Part shown: positions 2,209 through 43,376 of the stretch, one piece after another | Numbering within the stretch: the stretch's first letter is position 1 | Layout of the letters: each line of letters starts with the position of its first letter | Source: Deltaproteobacteria bacterium | GTDB taxonomy: Bacteria; Myxococcota_A; JAADFL01 | Assembly (NCBI GenBank): GCA_013152945.1 | Contig: JAADFL010000185.1 | Span: forward strand, 1 to 45,850 | Direction: 5' to 3' | Length of the DNA: 45,850 nt | Program-made: the position numbers and the translations under genes | Notes under the pieces: generated by a model | What the model was told of the DNA's origin: nothing | The model's input: the letters and a program-made list of their open reading frames with translations, nothing else | Databases searched by the model: none

Positions 2209-2238
2209 TTGTAATGCATTGTCACATGCATATATATT
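2209..2238 (+). promoter_or_regulatory. Possible sigma-70 promoter for the riboswitch transcript
   Basis: TTGTAA (2209-2214) is followed after 16 bases by TATATA (2231-2236), or after 18 bases by TATATT. A start near 2244 would place the fluoride riboswitch in the 5' leader of the downstream GTPase mRNA. This is a match by eye in an AT-rich spacer. Confidence 0.4.
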
Positions 2239-2280
2239 AATCACCATGAATCATTTCCCGGGGCCTGCCAGCTCCGGGAC

Positions 2281-2329
2281 GGTGATGGAGTTCACCGGTC
2301 AACCGCCATCGTGGGCTGATGACTCCTGC
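2281..2329 (+). promoter_or_regulatory. Fluoride riboswitch (crcB motif)
   Basis: The stretch carries the conserved parts of the crcB/fluoride aptamer in order. A GGTGA/TCACC hairpin (2281-2285 with 2292-2296) encloses the TGGAGT loop. It is followed by AACCGCC (2301-2307), a GCC/GGC stem (2305-2307 with 2314-2316) and CTGATGACTCCT. The loop GGAGT (2287-2291) can pair with ACTCC (2322-2326), which is the diagnostic pseudoknot. The orientation matches the gene starting at 2369. Known members bind fluoride and switch on fluoride exporters and fluoride-sensitive enzymes; here the downstream gene is a dynamin-like GTPase. The aptamer call rests on recalled consensus and looks strong. Confidence 0.92.
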
Positions 2330-2330
2330 A

Positions 2331-2361
2331 AGGCCGGTTAAAGGCTTTGAAAAAAGGAGCC
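2331..2361 (+). promoter_or_regulatory. Candidate expression platform sequestering the ribosome binding site
   Basis: GGCTTT (2343-2348) can pair with GGAGCC (2356-2361), burying the Shine-Dalgarno GGAG (2356-2359) of the GTPase gene in a 6-bp hairpin (four Watson-Crick, two G-U). The same GGCTT (2343-2347) can alternatively pair with AGGCC (2331-2335), just 3' of the aptamer, which would free the ribosome binding site. The two folds exclude each other, as expected for a translational switch. This was worked out by eye, without energy calculation. Confidence 0.45.
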
Positions 2362-2368
2362 CCTGCTC

Positions 2369-4201
2369 ATGGAAGCAGAAATCAGAGAGACAAAAACGGT
2401 CGAGGCCAACAACAGGTCGGTAACGCGGCTGAAACAAGCCGGTATTATTCTGGCCGGGTACAGGGAAGATTTGCCTCTAATCCACGAGAAGATCAGTGAG
2501 CTTGAAAATCAACTCATCGACGGACGTTTCTACCTTGCAGTGGTAGGGCAATTCAAGCGGGGCAAGAGCACGATTTTGAACGCCCTGCTCGGAGACAAGC
2601 TTCTTCCAACATCGGTATTACCGCTGACCGCGATTCCCACGTTCATCTCGCATGGATCGAACAGCAAAGAAAAAATCATCCGGGTGGTGTTCGAAGACAA
2701 AAAGGCGGTTGAACACAAAGTTGACGAGGCAGATGAAATAAAAAAACTGCTGGACGACCTGGTGACGGAGTGCGGCAACCCGGAAAACCGTAAGGCCATA
2801 GCAAGGGTCGAAATAGAATACCAGGGAGATTTGCTGAAAAACGGGATAGTCCTGGTGGACACCCCTGGAATCGGCTCCACGTTCGAGCACAATACAAAAA
2901 CCACTTTGGAATTCCTGCCCAAGTGCGATGCAGCGCTTTTCGTTGTTTCCGCGGATCCGCCGCTTACAGAAGCGGAATTTGATTTTCTTTCACAGGTCAA
3001 AGACCGGGCGAGCCGGATCTTCTTTGCTTTTAATAAGATTGATTACCTGGACCGGGAAGAAAGAAGGGAAGCCCTTGCATTTTTACAAGAGCTTCTGGTC
3101 GAAAAGGCCGGCTTGGACGGTTCGCCGGAGATTTTTCCTCTTTCGGCCCGCACGGCCCTTGAGGCAAAGAGACAAGGGGACCAAAATAAGTTGCATGAAA
3201 GCGGACTCGTCGAATTGGAGCACCGGCTTGTCTCTTTCGCCCATGCAGAAAAGATGGATGTATTGCGCCGGGCAATCGAAAGAAAGGCATTGGAGGTGAT
3301 GGAGCAGGCCCTTTTGCAACTTCGAATTTCCCTGCGTTCTCTGCAGATGCCGCTTGCCGACCTGGAAGAAAAATCCGGTGTCTTCGAGTCCAAGCTGGCC
3401 GGAATCGAAAAGCAGCGGATCAGCTTGCAGGACAGGCTCGAAGGCGAGCGCCGGCGTTGCTCCGAATTCATAGAGAGTCAAGCCCAGGACCTCAAATCCG
3501 GCTCTGCGAAGTACCTAAAAGAAACTCTGGAACAGGTTTTCAGCAAGGACGAGAGCAGGTGCCCACTGGAAGAAGAATTACAAAATGATTTCGAAAAACG
3601 CGTCCCTGATTTCTTCAAGGCCGCCCTCAAAAAGCATGCCCGGACAGCCTCGAATCATGTACAATCCTCTCTTAGCGAGTTTCAAAAAGAGGCTGACCGG
3701 TTGGTGGAAGGTGTGCGCAAGATTGCTGCGGAGATATTCGACATTTCTTACAAGGCACCTGAAAGCGCCAAGGCCTTTCAACTTGACACCCGTGTATACT
3801 GGGAGACCCATAAATGGACTCCCAGCTTCAGCCCCATACCTCCCGGAGCTCTCGACAAGTTGCTGCCTGTGCGAACGAGACGGCAGAGACTTAAAAAAAG
3901 GTGGAATGAACAAGTGGATATGCTGGTTCGGCAAAACGTTGAAACAGTACGCTGGCAATTGCTGCAGAGTACGATAAAGGCCTTTGCCCATTTCAGCACA
4001 CAAATGGAAAAGTGCCTGGCGGAAACCGTGGAAGCGACCCGTAAGGCCATGGGAAAGGCCCATGCTCTAAAGCAGGAACACTCGAGGCAGAGTGAAAAAG
4101 AAATAAGAAAACTGGAAGAGACCATAGATAGTGTTCAAACCTGGCTGCGCAACACCGGAACGGCACCTGTGCAAGATAAAAAAAAGAAGCTCGGGGGCTA
4201 A
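2369..4201 (+). CDS. Dynamin-family (bacterial dynamin-like) GTPase
   Basis: A 610-residue GTPase with a G1/P-loop GQFKRGKST (residues 60-68), a G3 motif DTPG (164-167) and a G4 motif NKID (222-225). The spacing and the GQFKRGKS form are typical of bacterial dynamin-like proteins. The C-terminal half (about residues 300-590) is largely charged and helical, as in the stalk regions of dynamins. Members usually act on membranes (fission, fusion or stress repair). The ATG follows GGAG at 2356-2359 with a 9-base gap. The gene lies 40 bases behind a fluoride riboswitch and 4 bases before a membrane glycosyltransferase gene, so the pair is probably co-transcribed and fluoride-responsive. Function beyond GTPase/membrane remodelling is not visible. 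Confidence 0.85.
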   Translation: MEAEIRETKTVEANNRSVTRLKQAGIILAGYREDLPLIHEKISELENQLIDGRFYLAVVGQFKRGKSTILNALLGDKLLPTSVLPLTAIPTFISHGSNSKEKIIRVVFEDKKAVEHKVDEADEIKKLLDDLVTECGNPENRKAIARVEIEYQGDLLKNGIVLVDTPGIGSTFEHNTKTTLEFLPKCDAALFVVSADPPLTEAEFDFLSQVKDRASRIFFAFNKIDYLDREERREALAFLQELLVEKAGLDGSPEIFPLSARTALEAKRQGDQNKLHESGLVELEHRLVSFAHAEKMDVLRRAIERKALEVMEQALLQLRISLRSLQMPLADLEEKSGVFESKLAGIEKQRISLQDRLEGERRRCSEFIESQAQDLKSGSAKYLKETLEQVFSKDESRCPLEEELQNDFEKRVPDFFKAALKKHARTASNHVQSSLSEFQKEADRLVEGVRKIAAEIFDISYKAPESAKAFQLDTRVYWETHKWTPSFSPIPPGALDKLLPVRTRRQRLKKRWNEQVDMLVRQNVETVRWQLLQSTIKAFAHFSTQMEKCLAETVEATRKAMGKAHALKQEHSRQSEKEIRKLEETIDSVQTWLRNTGTAPVQDKKKKLGG

Positions 4202-4205
4202 AGAC

Positions 4206-6269
4206 TTGAAAGCGAGACCATTAACGGTCTTGCTGATTCTTGCATACCGGGTCTGTACGCCCATGCCGTTCGCCAGGGCGGGAGACGCCGATTCACATGA
4301 AGACGGCTCATGGGTTTTGTCGCCGATGCCCGGACAAGACCTCGAGGCATTGTTCGAGCCGGGACCTGATTTACCCCTTGAATTAAAACTTATCTCTGTC
4401 AGGGCCGGTCCCAAAACCATTGTCGTCGAATATGGATATGCAACCGGAGAGACGGTAAGTGTAATCATCGGCCATAATACAAGAGTGCAGGTTGTGGGAG
4501 CCAAGAATCAGGGGGACCACGCCGTAATTTCCGAATTGATCTCGGACAGGGCGGGGAAATCGGGTTTGAAGTGGACCCGGCTCGGCACAAGAAAGAAGAG
4601 TCCTTTGGAGCCGCCGGGAAACGCCTTTAATTACAACCTTGCGGCAGGAGTGGCCCTGATCTTGTTCCTGGTTGCAGGACTTGCAGCTATCAGGCTGTGG
4701 AGCCGCAGGATCCGAGGCAGCGGAGATGAGAAAGACATTTTAGAAACAAGGATTGGCCATGGCCCAAAAAACGACAGGGCAAGAATGCTCTCGATGCACC
4801 TGGATCCTTGGAATCTTGCTGCAGCAATATTCATCCTGTGTGCGCTTTTATTGAGGTTCTATCTTGCATCGACTGAACCAATAAGCAGGGACGAAACATT
4901 TCTCCTCGAACCTCACTTTTGGAACAACTGGTTTCTGGGCGGCAAGACAGGAGAAAATCCCCTCTTGTTCAGGTTTCTGGTGCATCTTTGGCGCAAGGGC
5001 AAGGAACCGCTTTGGTGGATGAGACTATGGCCCTGCCTCTTTGGCGGTGCAGGCCTGTGGATCTTGTTTACAGCACTTCGGAAAAGGACCAGACCATTGA
5101 CAGCCCTGGCTGCGGTCATCGTCATCTCGCTCGGCGCATTGCACTTGAGATTCTCTACACGGGAAAGGGCGTACACATTGTGGTTCTTTTTCAGCTTGCT
5201 CGCACATGTCTCGTATTGCAAGGCTGTCAAGGGTAAAACCAGGGCCTGGTTGTCGTTCACCCTTTGGTCGTACCTGGCAGTGCTCTCTCATTTCCTGGCC
5301 CTGGCACAGTTGCTGGGGTACATGGTTCACTCAGCCACCATGGGCCGCAAGAAATTAAATAACCTCGTCGTGGCTGTCCTGCCCGCAGTAGCAGCATGGT
5401 CGCTGCTGGTAGCTCCAATATTCATTATACAAAGAAGCGGCAGCGAGATGCTGCGGCCGTCTTTTCACCGTTTTTTGCTTTGCATGGGTTCCTTGTTGAC
5501 GCCCTCCCTCGGAGGGGCGGCGATTGTCTTATTATTGCTGCCTCTCATAGGCAAAGCCGCACCCTATGAAAGATTCAAGGAGGTGATGAGAAGCGGTGAC
5601 GGTGCTGTTCCGTGGATACTCTTGTTTTCCCTGGCCGGTGTCATGTTGCTCTCGATTTTCCGGCAAGTGGGAGCAAGGCACCTGTTTCCCGTTCTTCCAC
5701 TTGCCGCTATGTTCGGTTTGAGCGCCATGCAATCGGGAACATGGTCAATGATGCAGAAAGTGCTTTTGGGCGCCGTGTCTCTTTCAATACTTGCCGGTGG
5801 AGCGCAGCTACTCCTTGGAAAGAGGTCCGGGGCAATAGGTCCTGCAATCCGGCATTGCCCGACTGTTCTCGTAAGTCCTCCTTCTTACCTCTGGAAGGTG
5901 GTCTACGGCATCGAAGGCGGCAGGAAATTATGGAGCCCGTCCTGTAAGGGGATTCCCTATCCTCCTTCGTTCAGAGACGACAAAAAGAAAATCTATGTGT
6001 CCGGAATCCCGTTGGGCGAAAGCACATCCTTTATGGACGCCGTATTGGACAAAGCAGGAGATTTTTGTGTTCTTGATTTTGCACTGAACCTGGGTTCCGG
6101 TGCGGTAGGAACATGGCTTGAAAAGAGGTGCACGGTTACAAGTAACACGCAAGGTTTTTCTCATAACGGCTTCACTTCATATCGATGCAAAGGCCCCCGG
6201 TTGAACAACAGGGACCTGGGCTGTAATCCCTTTGAGACGCATCACGAAACGGAAATGCAACGGAATTGA
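4206..6269 (+). CDS. Polytopic membrane glycosyltransferase, GT-C fold (GT39/ArnT-like)
   Basis: Predicted 687 residues if translation begins at TTG 4206. That start gives a clean signal peptide (MKAR..., ending in ARA before GDADS) and lies 8 bases behind a GGGGG stretch; an ATG at 4131 would overlap the GTPase gene by 71 bases. Residues ~30-140 form a soluble, presumably periplasmic domain I do not recognise. A membrane segment follows at ~143-165, then a multi-spanning region beginning near residue 201. SRDE near residue 225, just after the first helix of that region, fits the catalytic acidic motif of lipid-linked sugar transferases, and LSHFLALAQLLG resembles the family's later helix. 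It probably transfers sugar from a polyprenyl carrier; donor and acceptor are unknown. It is 4 bases downstream of the dynamin-like gene. Confidence 0.6.
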   Translation: MKARPLTVLLILAYRVCTPMPFARAGDADSHEDGSWVLSPMPGQDLEALFEPGPDLPLELKLISVRAGPKTIVVEYGYATGETVSVIIGHNTRVQVVGAKNQGDHAVISELISDRAGKSGLKWTRLGTRKKSPLEPPGNAFNYNLAAGVALILFLVAGLAAIRLWSRRIRGSGDEKDILETRIGHGPKNDRARMLSMHLDPWNLAAAIFILCALLLRFYLASTEPISRDETFLLEPHFWNNWFLGGKTGENPLLFRFLVHLWRKGKEPLWWMRLWPCLFGGAGLWILFTALRKRTRPLTALAAVIVISLGALHLRFSTRERAYTLWFFFSLLAHVSYCKAVKGKTRAWLSFTLWSYLAVLSHFLALAQLLGYMVHSATMGRKKLNNLVVAVLPAVAAWSLLVAPIFIIQRSGSEMLRPSFHRFLLCMGSLLTPSLGGAAIVLLLLPLIGKAAPYERFKEVMRSGDGAVPWILLFSLAGVMLLSIFRQVGARHLFPVLPLAAMFGLSAMQSGTWSMMQKVLLGAVSLSILAGGAQLLLGKRSGAIGPAIRHCPTVLVSPPSYLWKVVYGIEGGRKLWSPSCKGIPYPPSFRDDKKKIYVSGIPLGESTSFMDAVLDKAGDFCVLDFALNLGSGAVGTWLEKRCTVTSNTQGFSHNGFTSYRCKGPRLNNRDLGCNPFETHHETEMQRN

Positions 6270-7135: not shown

Positions 7136-9091
7136 TTATTGATCCGTTTCCTTTTGAACCAGGCACGGCCCGTATTCGAGCCCCTTTTCCTGGGATATCA
7201 TCAGAACGTAATTTGCCAGCACATTCGAAAATTCATCCCTCGTGTGGTCCTTGTCAGGCCAAGTCACGGTGAGCTTGTCTATCCGGCACGAATTGCCCAA
7301 TCCGAACCTGACGGCCAGGGAATTCTGCAGCCCGAAGTGGCCGTGACCGCCATCCACGTGCCTTGTTTGAAGCATGCCGTCCGCTAGGATCTCCACCCTT
7401 GCCCCTATTGCAGCCCGGTTGGCACCGCCCTCCCCGGCTCCTTCAAGATGTATCACGGTCCTGTTTGCAAGTTGGCCCACATCGTTCCTATACACGTGCA
7501 CTTCGGGTGTCTTCCACGGGCTGTCCCTCATCGTGCTCGATCCCATTACCAAGTCGTCATCGCCGTCGGAATCGATGTCAAAGGCAACCACTTCCTGCGG
7601 CCGTTCCTGGTCCACCCCGGAAATATCCGATACGTCCTGGTAACGCAACTTGTCGACATTCATCACCCTGTGGTACAAGAGACCCTTCTGGTCCGGGTAA
7701 TCGGACGCGGCGATGAACAAGTCTAGACCGCCGTCGTTGTCGAAGTCGAAAAAAACGGCTGAAATATCTCCCTCGTTCCAATCCTGTGTATAGTGTACCC
7801 TCGAAAGACCTGTAGCCTGCCTTCCCGGCCTGGTGAAATCTCCCTTACCGTCGTTGACCAATATCTGTGAAGGATCGGAGGACTCGCCCGCCCACCAGTG
7901 ACGGATCTCCGCATTGAACAGGTCCATGTCGCCATCATTGTCCACGTCTTCGCATAAAGTCGTAAACGTGTTGCCGTTCAGCCTGAACGGGTGGTCGTCC
8001 GTGCCGGGATTCCATGCAGGCGGGTCCGGGCATTGCACGGCGGGATTCGGCGGCTTGGGATCGCAGCCGCCCACGGTCTTGCAATAACACCTGTAGAACT
8101 GGTCGTCCGAGTAATTCCGCAATTCATCCCCTGCAAAGCCTGACTTTGCAGCCTGGTCCTCGAACTTCGCGCCCTTGTTCATCCACTGCATGTTCCATTG
8201 CCTGCCGTAAGCAGATACGAGCAGGTCCTGCATGCCGTCATTGTCCACGTCACATGCTGTAACACCGTAGGTCGGCCTGTGGTTCGTGCCCTTGTCGTAC
8301 CCGAACATGTCTGTTGTCAGTCCCACCTTGTCCGTGACATCTATAAACGTACCGTCTCCGTTTCCGCGGTACAACCTGTCCTGCAAACCCGGTAACTGAC
8401 CATAACGCATGTACCAAAAACCCACGAACAGGTCTATGTCGCCGTCAAGATCGTAATCCAGGAAGGTTGCTGAACTCGTACTCCACAAGCTCTGTTTTCC
8501 AGGTGTTACATCACTGTCGGGTGCAAACGAGAATTTGCCTGTTCCGTCGTTGAGGAGTATGGCGGACCTGTCTCCGGGATCATCCTTTGAAGGATCCGTG
8601 TACGTTCCGGAAAAGGCATCGAGGTCACCATCGTTATCCACGTCAGCAAATACCGCCAATTGTGCGGACCTGCCGTTTGTGCCTTCCTTGTTCTTGAGGA
8701 AACCCGAATCAAGGGTTTTATCCTCGAATCGTCCTTCCGCCTTGACCCGGTTCAAGAGCACCCTTTTCAGGAGTCCGCCCGGAATCTCATCCATGTTGTC
8801 CCTCTTGTTCGAAGTTACTTTGTGCACCACGAGGTCCGGCATCAAATCACCATCCAGGTCTGCTGCTGCAAGTCTGTTACCCTGAACATCCATGTCATCC
8901 TTGCCGAAGCCGACCTCTTTTGTGACATCGGTAAAGTACGGCCCACCGCCGAGCATGCCCGGCGAAAGACAAACCATGGGCGGAAGCTTGGGACCGGACA
9001 CCTTGTTCTCCTCGCAACCAAGAAAAAGCGCAATCCAAAGCAGTGCCAGAACCTGTGATGAAATAATATTTTTCCTTGTAAATCCGAACAT
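7136..9091 (-). CDS. FG-GAP/VCBS repeat lipoprotein with ASPIC/UnbV C-terminal domain (CRTAC1-like)
   Basis: A 651-residue predicted lipoprotein. The signal ends in LFLGC with the lipidated Cys at about residue 26. The body has at least six calcium-binding-type repeats (for example DVDNDGDLDAF, DYDLDGDIDLF, DVDNDGMQDLL, DFDNDGGLDLF) expected to form a beta-propeller. The last ~90 residues (RFGLGNSCRIDKLTVTWPD) match the ASPIC/UnbV domain. Proteins of this build are secreted or surface-bound; the ligand is unknown. AGGGAG and GAAGAGG lie just before the ATG. It forms a two-gene unit with the prepilin peptidase. Confidence 0.9.
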   Translation of the reverse strand: MFGFTRKNIISSQVLALLWIALFLGCEENKVSGPKLPPMVCLSPGMLGGGPYFTDVTKEVGFGKDDMDVQGNRLAAADLDGDLMPDLVVHKVTSNKRDNMDEIPGGLLKRVLLNRVKAEGRFEDKTLDSGFLKNKEGTNGRSAQLAVFADVDNDGDLDAFSGTYTDPSKDDPGDRSAILLNDGTGKFSFAPDSDVTPGKQSLWSTSSATFLDYDLDGDIDLFVGFWYMRYGQLPGLQDRLYRGNGDGTFIDVTDKVGLTTDMFGYDKGTNHRPTYGVTACDVDNDGMQDLLVSAYGRQWNMQWMNKGAKFEDQAAKSGFAGDELRNYSDDQFYRCYCKTVGGCDPKPPNPAVQCPDPPAWNPGTDDHPFRLNGNTFTTLCEDVDNDGDMDLFNAEIRHWWAGESSDPSQILVNDGKGDFTRPGRQATGLSRVHYTQDWNEGDISAVFFDFDNDGGLDLFIAASDYPDQKGLLYHRVMNVDKLRYQDVSDISGVDQERPQEVVAFDIDSDGDDDLVMGSSTMRDSPWKTPEVHVYRNDVGQLANRTVIHLEGAGEGGANRAAIGARVEILADGMLQTRHVDGGHGHFGLQNSLAVRFGLGNSCRIDKLTVTWPDKDHTRDEFSNVLANYVLMISQEKGLEYGPCLVQKETDQ

Positions 9092-9254
9092 GGCCTCTTC
9101 TCCCTGGAAAAAGAATCATGTCAATGATAAGGTAATTGCCGTTGCCAGGGCAAGTGGACTTGATTCACCGCGATTTTGTGGAAAGAAAACAGCGTCCGGC
9201 CCACATTTCCGGCTCGTGTCCCGCCACGTGACCCAGGTTGTCGGCGCGTCGATG

Positions 9255-9524
9255 CTACGGCCTCTTACCCGGCGCGCATCTGCCTATCTCTGCTTCGCAG
9301 TGGCGTGGTGCCGGGTAGCCACCGCCGCAGTACTCGTCCGTCCGGCAGTAAATTCCGAATGAGCAGTTGGAGTCGTCGTCGCAATAGTAGTAACCGAGGT
9401 CCTTGGCGTTCATGCATTTCATGGTGTTGAGCCAGCAGAACTCGTTTTCACCATAGTGGCTGTCACTGGTGCACCGTCCCGAGCCTTTCTGGTCTTGCCA
9501 CGACACGCGCGTGCTGGTATTCAA
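9255..9524 (-). pseudogene. Cys-rich protein remnant
   Basis: An 89-codon frame with about ten cysteines in a spaced pattern (DDDSNCSFGIYC, DEYCGGG, EIGRCAPG). This is like the Cys-rich repeats in deltaproteobacterial surface lipoproteins. It can only begin at a TTG directly after an in-frame TAA, has no ribosome binding site, no signal peptide, and abuts the divergent acetyltransferase gene. I read it as the C-terminal remnant of a larger secreted protein. It could instead be a small genuine gene. The 163 bases between it and 9091 show nothing else. Confidence 0.4.
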
Positions 9525-9532
9525 TTATACCC

Positions 9533-10063
9533 ATGAGAGCCGAACACAGTCTCGAAATAACTATAAGACCGGCCCGAATTCAGGACGCACAGCTCATTTC
9601 CGACATGATACACGAGCTTGCCAGGTACGAAAGGCATCCAGAGGACTGCCGGGCTACCGGCAAAACAATAGAGGCCCAGCTCTTTAAACAGGATCCCAGG
9701 CCCGCAGAATGCCTGATTGCAGAGTTGTCCGGTGAGCCCGTGGGGTTCGCATTGTTCTTTCACAATTTTTCGACGTGGGAGTGCGCTCCGGGCCTGTACC
9801 TCGAAGATCTGTTCGTCCGGCCCGGACACAGGGGCAAGGGGGCGGGCAAGGCATTATTCAAGAGAATAGCCGTAATAGCAGTGCAACGGGGATGCAAGAG
9901 ACTCGAGTTCTCTGTCCTGGACTGGAACGAGCCAAGCATTCGCTTCTACCAAGCCCAAAAGGCAAGGGCCATGGCCGAATGGACTGTATACAGGATTCAA
10001 TCCAGGGATCTGCAGGAACTTGCAGGCATTGACGAACCGGGCTGGAGCCGAAACCGCCGGTGA
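9533..10063 (+). CDS. GNAT-family N-acetyltransferase, SSAT/thialysine-acetyltransferase-like
   Basis: A 176-residue GNAT protein. The acetyl-CoA-binding motif A is LEDLFVRPGHRGKGAGKALF, with the RxxGxG/A loop intact, followed by motif B WNEPSIRFYQ. The order LYLEDLFV...GKALF and WNEPSIRFY is that of the spermidine/spermine and thialysine N-acetyltransferases. It should acetylate a polyamine, lysine analogue or related amine in the cytoplasm. No clear Shine-Dalgarno precedes the ATG. It ends 35 bases before the DsrE-like gene on the same strand. Confidence 0.85.
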   Translation: MRAEHSLEITIRPARIQDAQLISDMIHELARYERHPEDCRATGKTIEAQLFKQDPRPAECLIAELSGEPVGFALFFHNFSTWECAPGLYLEDLFVRPGHRGKGAGKALFKRIAVIAVQRGCKRLEFSVLDWNEPSIRFYQAQKARAMAEWTVYRIQSRDLQELAGIDEPGWSRNRR

Positions 10064-42213: not shown

Positions 42214-42313
42214 GGCGGCCGGAAGCACTGGACACACACAAGCATCCGCTACCGCTGCTTCCTTCCGGACCTCACGGGGTTCACGGCCCCGTGTCGTCCA
42301 GGCCCCGGCCGCC
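42214..42313 (-). ncRNA. ffs: Signal recognition particle RNA, 4.5S type
   Basis: On the minus strand the apical SRP core is present: GTGAGGTCCGGAAGGAAGC then AGCGGTAGCGG, with the GGAA tetraloop and the asymmetric internal loop. The ends GGCGGCC and GGCCGCC (42214-42220 with 42307-42313) and GGAC/GTCC blocks close a long hairpin of about 100 nt. A run of seven T on the coding strand (42211-42205 region) follows directly and should terminate transcription. It lies just upstream of dnaX, a common arrangement. Confidence 0.93.
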
Positions 42314-42330
42314 ACAATGAATTCCAAACA

Positions 42331-42422
<92 letters not shown>

Positions 42423-42441
42423 GACAATCCAATCAAATCGG

Positions 42442-42528
42442 CGGAGAGCGAGGGATTCGAACCCCCGGTGGAGAAAACCCCACACTTGATTTCGAATCAA
42501 GCGCCTTCGACCTCTCGGCCAGCTCTCC
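42442..42528 (-). tRNA. tRNA-Ser(CGA)
   Basis: Class II tRNA with acceptor GGAGAGC/GCTCTCC, anticodon stem CTTGA/TCAAG, loop TTCGAAA (anticodon CGA, codon TCG) and a variable arm. The 3' CCA is not encoded (CCG follows the discriminator). Confidence 0.95.
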
Positions 42529-42562
42529 AAACCTGCTTTCGCTCCATGGTTCGATAGCCCGG

Positions 42563-43012
42563 CTATCTCCTGGAGCGAAAAAATTTTTCAAGGAGCGAAG
42601 CGGTTTCCCGCTCTAGCACACCCCCCTTGACCTCTGCCCTGTGATTCAACCTCGGGTCAGAGGTGATCCGGAACATGGTATCCACGGACCCGGCCTTCGG
42701 ATCCGGACAACCATACACCACTCTTTCGACCCTTGCCAATACCGCGGCTCCGGCACACATGGGACAGGGTTCCATGGTGGACACAAGGGTGCAACCTTCG
42801 AGCCGCCACGTGCCGAGCCTGGCACCGGCCTCTCTCAAGGCCAAGAGTTCCGCGTGGGCCGTGGGATCGTGATCCCTTTCCCTGCGGTTACCTCTCGACG
42901 CCAGGATCTCGCCTGCCGGACCGATAACCACTGCCCCTACAGGCACTTCTCCGGCTTCTTCGGCCTTGACCGCTTCATCGATGGCCAGGCGCATTATACG
43001 TTCCAGGTCCAA
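42563..43012 (-). CDS. tadA: tRNA-specific adenosine deaminase
   Basis: A 149-residue zinc deaminase. The catalytic HAE motif is in PTAHAELLAL and the second zinc motif is EPCPMCAG. It converts A34 to inosine in tRNA-Arg(ACG). It starts at TTG 43012, or possibly at ATG 42994, which would lose six residues. It lies between serine tRNA genes and its own substrate tRNA-Arg(ACG), with a terminator-like hairpin in front. Confidence 0.95.
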   Translation of the reverse strand: MDLERIMRLAIDEAVKAEEAGEVPVGAVVIGPAGEILASRGNRRERDHDPTAHAELLALREAGARLGTWRLEGCTLVSTMEPCPMCAGAAVLARVERVVYGCPDPKAGSVDTMFRITSDPRLNHRAEVKGGVLERETASLLEKFFRSRR

Positions 43013-43029
43013 TTGGAATCCAGTGCCTG

Positions 43030-43056
43030 AAAACGCCCGGCCGATACGGCCGGACG
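43030..43056 (-). terminator. Intrinsic terminator between tRNA-Arg and tadA
   Basis: On the minus strand a 10-bp G+C-rich stem (43056-43047 with 43043-43034, one G-U pair) closes a TAT loop and is followed by TTTT (43033-43030). It would end transcripts of the upstream tRNAs, implying a separate or read-through start for tadA. Confidence 0.6.
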
Positions 43057-43071
43057 TTCCCGGCTATCTTT

Positions 43072-43148
43072 TGGCGTGCCCAAAGGGACTCGAACCCCCA
43101 ACCTCCTGATCCGTAGTCAGGTGCTCTATCCAATTGAGCCATGGGCAC
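43072..43148 (-). tRNA. tRNA-Arg(ACG)
   Basis: 77 nt with acceptor GTGCCCA/TGGGCAC, D-arm GCTC/GAGC, anticodon stem CCTGA/TCAGG with loop CTACGGA (anticodon ACG, read as ICG after TadA), T-arm GGGTTCGAGTCCC and an encoded CCA. Confidence 0.96.
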
Positions 43149-43162
43149 GCGGCTAATGCTCC

Positions 43163-43255
43163 TGGCGGAGAGAGAGGGATTCGAACCCTCGGTGGAGCTA
43201 TCAACCCCACACTCGCTTAGCAGGCGAGCACCTTCGGCCGCTCGGTCATCTCTCC
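43163..43255 (-). tRNA. tRNA-Ser(GCT)
   Basis: Class II tRNA with acceptor GGAGAGA/TCTCTCC, anticodon stem CTCGC/GCGAG, loop CTGCTAA (anticodon GCT, codons AGC/AGT), a variable arm and an encoded CCA. Confidence 0.95.
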
Positions 43256-43293
43256 GCATACCAAGTAAAACATGTTTTCAAAGAGTCGCGCGG

Positions 43294-43376
43294 CGGAGGA
43301 GGAGGGATTCGAACCCCCGGTGCTCTCGCACAGCGGTTTTCAAGACCGCCGCCTTAGACCACTCGGCCACTCCTCC
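43294..43376 (-). tRNA. tRNA-Ser(TGA)
   Basis: Class II tRNA with acceptor GGAGGAG/CTCCTCC, anticodon stem GCGGT/ACCGC, loop CTTGAAA (anticodon TGA, codons TCA and others by wobble). CCA is not encoded. Confidence 0.95.

Follow-up and report, generated by a model that had tools for sequence, protein, structure and literature searches.

Why should a fluoride riboswitch stand directly in front of a gene for a dynamin-like GTPase? The arrangement lies near the beginning of the window, the whole stretch of 45,850 nucleotides analysed here, which is contig C185 in full. Genes named as fluoride-riboswitch genes in the available text of three reports encode exporters, Na+/H+ antiporters, pyrophosphatase, enolase and HAD phosphatases, together with formate hydrogen lyase, chorismate mutase and mutS; no dynamin or other GTPase is among those named in that text (PMC2864571, PMC7266159, PMC11139923). 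The earlier note on this DNA knew of no dynamin among such genes, and likewise no published link between fluoride riboswitches or fluoride resistance and dynamins was found in the literature searched, which was mostly open and excluded the Baker 2012 gene list.

The aptamer, its leader and the gene behind it

The covariance-model check proposed in the earlier note gave a match to Rfam RF01734 over the complete model (1–64), scoring 51.8 bits against a gathering cut-off of 34 (E 1.4e-11 in the window scan, 3.4e-13 in the genome scan; Table 1), with P1, P2, the pseudoknot and the conserved core all present. The span first reported, 2281–2329, proves to be the core of this match, whose full extent is 2272–2335. 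The aptamer ends 33 nt before the ATG of the GTPase gene on the same strand, directly upstream and in the same direction as had been claimed, and the sequence runs from one to the other with no visible break of the kind that an assembly join would leave. Aptamers of RF01734 bind fluoride as a Mg-fluoride complex; for the window aptamer, fluoride binding is shown only by homology with that family. We regard it as practically certain that the window RNA is a real fluoride riboswitch, and its control of the dynamin gene as nearly as secure. A scan with Rfam found no second fluoride aptamer in the window's genome (4.84 Mb, 218 contigs, 94% complete). The window shares with known RF01734 riboswitches its sequence, P1, P2, pseudoknot and 5′ leader position, and the leaders considered here are transcription-type and translation-type in appearance, as in known fluoride riboswitches; the difference lies in the controlled gene, a dynamin.

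Table 1. Positions of features around the aptamer and the dynamin-like gene in the window
Feature	Position	Strand	Remarks
Sigma-70-like promoter, weak (TTGTAA, 18 nt, TATATT)	2209..2238	+	9/12 consensus bases
Fluoride riboswitch aptamer (RF01734)	2272..2335	+	51.8 bits, gathering 34, full-length model
Aptamer pseudoknot 5′ strand GGAGT	2287..2291	+	partner ACTCC 2322–2326; pairs present in 52/52 aligned aptamers
Switching strand CTCCT	2323..2327	+	pseudoknot strand; pairs with 2355–2359 in the minimum-energy fold
Shine-Dalgarno AAGGAG	2354..2359	+	begins 15 nt ahead of ATG
Dynamin-like GTPase, 610 aa	2369..4201	+	Dynamin_N E 6.7e-30, residues 56–219
Next ORF, membrane protein with 8 hydrophobic windows	about 4206..6269	+	may be co-transcribed with the dynamin

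The promoter call is weak, since one promoter-like site was seen ahead of the aptamer and 0.5 would be expected from shuffles. In the window leader, the Shine-Dalgarno has a paired fraction of 0.76 when the ensemble is unconstrained and of 0.65 when the aptamer is held; because this difference is small and the energy model lacks pseudoknots, the strand-exchange fold is suggestive only.

The window protein carries the GTPase motifs G1 (GQFKRGKST), G3 (DTPG) and G4 (NKID), and in an alignment of 45 members (the window and 44 loci, with ATG starts throughout) G60, K63–S67, D164–G167, N222, K223 and D225 are invariant in all 45. Profile searches place it closest, among solved sequences, to BDLP (E 5e-38), the Campylobacter DLP pair, IniA and the mitofusins, and the matches of the dynamin family include 2j68 (E 5e-38), 5owv and 6j72. 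In the predicted structure (mean pLDDT 86.1), a GTPase domain is carried on an extended helical neck and trunk; the trunk tip is a loop predicted with lower confidence, spanning roughly residues 457–500, and it bears a conserved aromatic, proline-rich motif. Foldseek returned BDLP (2j69) and IniA (6j72) as top matches, and VIA-align superposed 343 residues on mitofusin 1 (Z 29.7, rmsd 7.2) and 519 residues on IniA (Z 25.3, rmsd 7.6), while identity to the top solved full-length relatives is at most 20%. Dynamin_N with G1, G3 and G4, and a neck and trunk of BDLP-mitofusin type, place the protein in the dynamin superfamily, and it probably acts on membranes. A simple hydropathy scan gave no transmembrane segment in the window protein.

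The ORF that follows had been described in the earlier note as a membrane glycosyltransferase, from which a change in envelope glycans was proposed. It is hydrophobic, but the name glycosyltransferase is unsupported because a Pfam search at E 0.01 gave nothing; since tblastn (E 1e-3) also gave no homologue beside the dynamin in the other loci compared, the envelope-glycan reading was dropped. The GH57 gene upstream, on the same strand, was set aside as a part of the riboswitch unit: its stop at 2187 precedes both the weak promoter and the aptamer. A long Asp-Thr repeat lies at the start of the GH57 ORF, which opens at the end of the contig (window 1–60). At the other end of the window, a small SRP RNA and five tRNA genes are clustered at 42214–43376 (−).

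Conservation of the riboswitch-dynamin pairing

In a sample of the phylum, fluoride aptamers are present in 24 of 377 genomes and dynamin relatives (E 1e-10) in 101 of 282. A same-strand aptamer stands directly ahead of four of the dynamin genes, all of them within the top five matches: those of the window (G000), G108 (39% identity), G033 and G112, from four different families; the window's order and class comprise one genome each. An alignment of these four riboswitch-linked dynamins was used as the query against 84,980 species genomes, in a protein-based search that ignored RNA. A single-protein search of the species-genome contigs returned no relatives, whereas the four-protein alignment did: at least 555 relatives were confirmed, and the best 80, most of them from metagenome assemblies, were analysed.

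Among these best 80, 53 have an above-cut-off aptamer on the same strand within 700 nt upstream, a proportion that is valid for the nearest relatives only. The median gap from aptamer to start codon is 61 nt, and 50 of the 53 gaps do not exceed 160 nt. Sixteen named phyla account for 46 of the linked loci, with seven more from genomes without a named phylum; 44 are bacterial and nine archaeal, methanogens included. Among them are an isolate, Moorella sulfitireducens, and the complete chromosome of a member of the Synergistota (L-13). L136, whose aptamer is in the same place as that of G108, is apparently this locus counted again among the 80. Since aptamers are rare in genomes and yet stand upstream of most of these relatives, which were selected by protein, the pairing is not a matter of chance. 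The link between riboswitch and dynamin is conserved, and the pairing that the earlier note had found unexpected at one locus recurs across its closest relatives. We consider it very likely that, across phyla, this dynamin is part of the response to fluoride.

At the other 27 of the best 80, no aptamer scoring above the cut-off lies within 700 nt. Sub-threshold aptamers lie directly 5′ of the dynamin in L125 (33.3 bits) and L135 (28.7 bits); L111 and L115 have an aptamer about 700 nt upstream with no intervening same-strand ORF of 60 aa or more (by naive ORF calls), L137 has two small ORFs between aptamer and dynamin, and in L084 and L100 the aptamer leads a pair of MutS_V-like genes, with the dynamin following immediately after. 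With these seven added to the 53, 60 of the best 80 plausibly belong to a riboswitch-led unit. The locus ends within 250 nt in a further four of the 27 (L082, L090, L132 and L156). In one group of seven (L147, L149, L150 and L153–L156) no fluoride aptamer was found anywhere in the genomes, and five of its dynamins adjoin the same opposite-strand gene, which we read from its sequence as RNase G. ORFs throughout were called naively as longest open frames, a method that performs badly at high GC, as in L060.

A tree of 109 proteins (quick LG+G4 search) unites the window protein with the 80 relatives in a single clade (SH-aLRT 99) and separates them from 26 other dynamins of myxococcal origin. The proteins of L060 and L061, the latter on a long branch, group with these other myxococcal dynamins, so their riboswitches may represent a separate acquisition. 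On plasmids, the dynamin family has one distant match.

The aptamers retain the RF01734 core. In an alignment of the window aptamer with those of 51 linked loci (all 53 except L102 and L130; n = 52), the 11 pairs tested are formed in 98.8% of cells, six pairs show two-sided changes (shuffle mean 1.4), and sliding the partner by one to three columns lowers pairing to 45–63%. Compensatory changes in the pseudoknot are seen in L061 (5202–5265, reverse strand of the locus), where GGGAT faces ATCCC, and in L127 (2549–2615), where GAGGT faces ACCTC. Eight of the 53 linked relatives have a terminator-like leader end, with GGAG and then a T run just 5′ of the start codon, and some leaders (e.g. L079, L107 and L123) lack a Shine-Dalgarno from the motif list used.

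A proposed role in the fluoride response

The family described here shares Dynamin_N and the helical neck and trunk fold with BDLP of Nostoc, IniA of mycobacteria, DynA of B. subtilis and Campylobacter DLP1/2; unlike those, it is linked to a fluoride riboswitch and, judged by the hydropathy scan of the window protein, has no transmembrane segment. Its members are mostly single genes, whereas most bacterial DLP genes are paired, according to the accessible part of one report (PMC6104087). In L200, a second dynamin-like ORF (8692–9987, −) lies upstream of the aptamer, perhaps forming a DLP pair. The window protein reaches none of the NCBIfam dynamin cut-offs (DynA, 63 bits against 1600; LeoA, 18.7 against 325; CrfC, 38.7 against 1146). 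All 45 members scanned match the PADLOC LeoA and LeoBC models (best E 8e-27), a similarity that is weak and at the level of the family; an anti-phage reading based on these models was rejected because the scores are weak and the recurrent neighbours here are fluoride genes.

The best explanation overall, which we hold with somewhat better than even confidence, is that these loci encode a fluoride-induced, membrane-acting dynamin that forms a widespread branch of the fluoride regulon. Each step from fluoride to membrane is inferred. Intracellular fluoride, as a Mg-fluoride complex, would bind the aptamer and keep the CTCCT strand in the pseudoknot; in the window this would leave AGGAG of the Shine-Dalgarno free, allowing translation to start, and in several relatives, to judge from their leaders, strand exchange would block an intrinsic terminator ending just 5′ of the start codon. 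The cell would then make a soluble GTPase of BDLP/mitofusin type, which may assemble on the inner face of the cytoplasmic membrane through its aromatic, proline-rich trunk tip and use GTP to seal, fuse or reshape a membrane that is under stress as HF enters and the proton gradient is lost.

IniA, which protects membranes, is an analogue for the dynamin described here. DynA is another, with a role in membrane surveillance in the available text (PMC8844932). On these analogies we favour membrane protection over enzyme replacement with modest confidence, although that protection is the dynamin's purpose, rather than something else, is a tentative proposal whose chances we put just short of even. 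The earlier note had connected fluoride stress with membrane remodelling or envelope glycan change; membrane remodelling remains the natural reading and, with the pairing conserved in 53 of the best 80 relatives, the connection is much stronger than one locus could make it, whereas the glycan part fell with the glycosyltransferase.

In its available text, one report (PMC11139923) gives the known fluoride regulon as exporters, genes of pH and ion balance, and enzymes that fluoride inhibits. Fluoride defence has thus far meant export, ion balance and the replacement of poisoned enzymes, to which the dynamin would add membrane remodelling conserved in at least 16 phyla; the fluoride-switched dynamin is apparently an overlooked branch of this regulon. 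To our knowledge, the physiological roles of bacterial and archaeal dynamins are mostly obscure, and these proteins would gain a chemically defined inducer, through which the function of the dynamin becomes directly testable.

Genomic company, exporters and the alternatives

Within about 3 kb of the dynamin, across the best 80 of at least 555 relatives, enolase is the commonest neighbour family (14 loci), followed by MutS_V protein pairs and MFS transporters (11 each), two clusters of Na+/H+ exchangers (10 and 4), CrcB (7), DUF190 (5) and UspA (3). Pfam, run on one representative each, supplied the names for enolase, both MutS_V proteins, MFS, the two exchanger clusters and DUF190; CrcB and UspA were named from sequence, CrcB also from the positions of genome CrcB matches. 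Five of the 36 genes directly 3′ of a dynamin match Na_H_Exchanger and four match enolase. The fluoride island of Enterobacter cloacae FRM, ppaC-uspA-eno-gpmA-crcB-orf5249, is under a fluoride riboswitch and shares enolase, UspA and CrcB with the dynamin loci; unlike these loci, no dynamin is named in its operon in the available text (PMC5533749).

The tandem MutS_V-domain pair, seen in fluoride clusters in L192 (6900–10057) and in L084, L088, L099, L100, L105 and L140, looks like a specialised family and not ordinary MutS. A protein of about 160 aa recurs near fluoride-linked dynamins (L121, 4820–5305; L101, 6388–6861; L102, 6348–6827), and its L121 copy has no Pfam match. In Methanoregula (L189; G401, contig C3, 201740–214613), seven fluoride aptamers lie within 13 kb: a divergent pair stands between the dynamin and an ABC-transporter-like gene, and others are near P-type ATPase-, glutamine synthetase- and dehydratase-like genes, named by sequence.

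The prominence of enolase, a fluoride-inhibited enzyme, bears on the strongest alternative, in which the GTPase is itself poisoned by fluoride and more of it is made, as with enolase and pyrophosphatase, because its ordinary job fails. Together with aluminium or magnesium fluoride, GDP imitates the transition state of GTP hydrolysis, and the fold matches include dynamin and Era structures with GDP-AlF4 (6djq, 3w6p and 7c1o). The replacement reading is the one given for enolase and phosphatases in the available text of PMC11139923. If dynamins were generally poisoned, however, other dynamins should have the switch too, and most do not: across 50 carrier genomes (those of the linked loci other than L087, L102 and L130) there are 58 Dynamin_N matches at E <1e-13, of which 51 have a switch and seven do not, the 51 being the 50 genes behind the choice of genomes and one more in G425. 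We consider poisoning unlikely, although it is the most serious rival. The same genomes hold 97 aptamer matches, 51 of them in front of a dynamin, a share that is not itself a test, as the genomes were picked for having a riboswitch-linked dynamin. In G425 (Methanofollis, L201), two divergent dynamins each have their own fluoride aptamer ahead of them.

The dynamin might instead replace or help an exporter, by coating the membrane, shedding damaged membrane or acting jointly with the adjoining Na+/H+ antiporters. The earlier note saw no fluoride exporter in the window, and this holds for the contig; genome-wide, there are no CrcB/Fluc matches in the 94% complete assembly. Two CLC genes are present, one of which seems to be divided between contigs C45 and C157, and their filter regions where seen (C167 and C157) read GHGVP. 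Riboswitch-linked CLC-F genes of the phylum (L015 and L016) have NNL or SNL, and GREGT, motifs that we take to be the mark of CLC-F, so the CLC genes of the window's genome were rejected as the exporter. CrcB is unmatched in 31 of the 50 carriers; 14 of the 50 lack CrcB and also yielded no aptamer other than that of the dynamin. A single riboswitch-linked CLC-F query, run on the 31 CrcB-free carriers and the window's genome, gave some CLC match in 13 of these 32 genomes, one of them strong (G402, E 1e-48); the NNL/SNL and GREGT pattern occurs in none of the 18 readable among the 19 matched places. Since the assemblies are incomplete, the query was single and other CLC-F types may differ, carriers without an exporter are a lead, one that would make fluoride survival independent of export possible in such genomes. 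Against the dynamin as a stand-in, CrcB is matched in the other 19 carriers, sometimes in the same cluster (L190, L197 and L200), so that dynamin and CrcB are not simple alternatives, and we judge this explanation rather improbable, somewhat more so than poisoning.

Membrane protection by an induced dynamin could also take a more specific form, in which fluoride is cofactor as well as inducer: Mg- or Al-fluoride would lock the GDP-bound dynamin in its assembled state, as a stable coat limiting HF entry or sealing leaks, an export-independent defence common to archaea and bacteria for carriers without Fluc or CLC-F. We offer this as a speculation with little chance of being right. Chance placement or an assembly artefact in one genome, which the single aptamer of that genome ahead of so unexpected a gene might have suggested, carries negligible probability and is refuted by the same arrangement in 53 of the best 80 relatives, from 16 named phyla.
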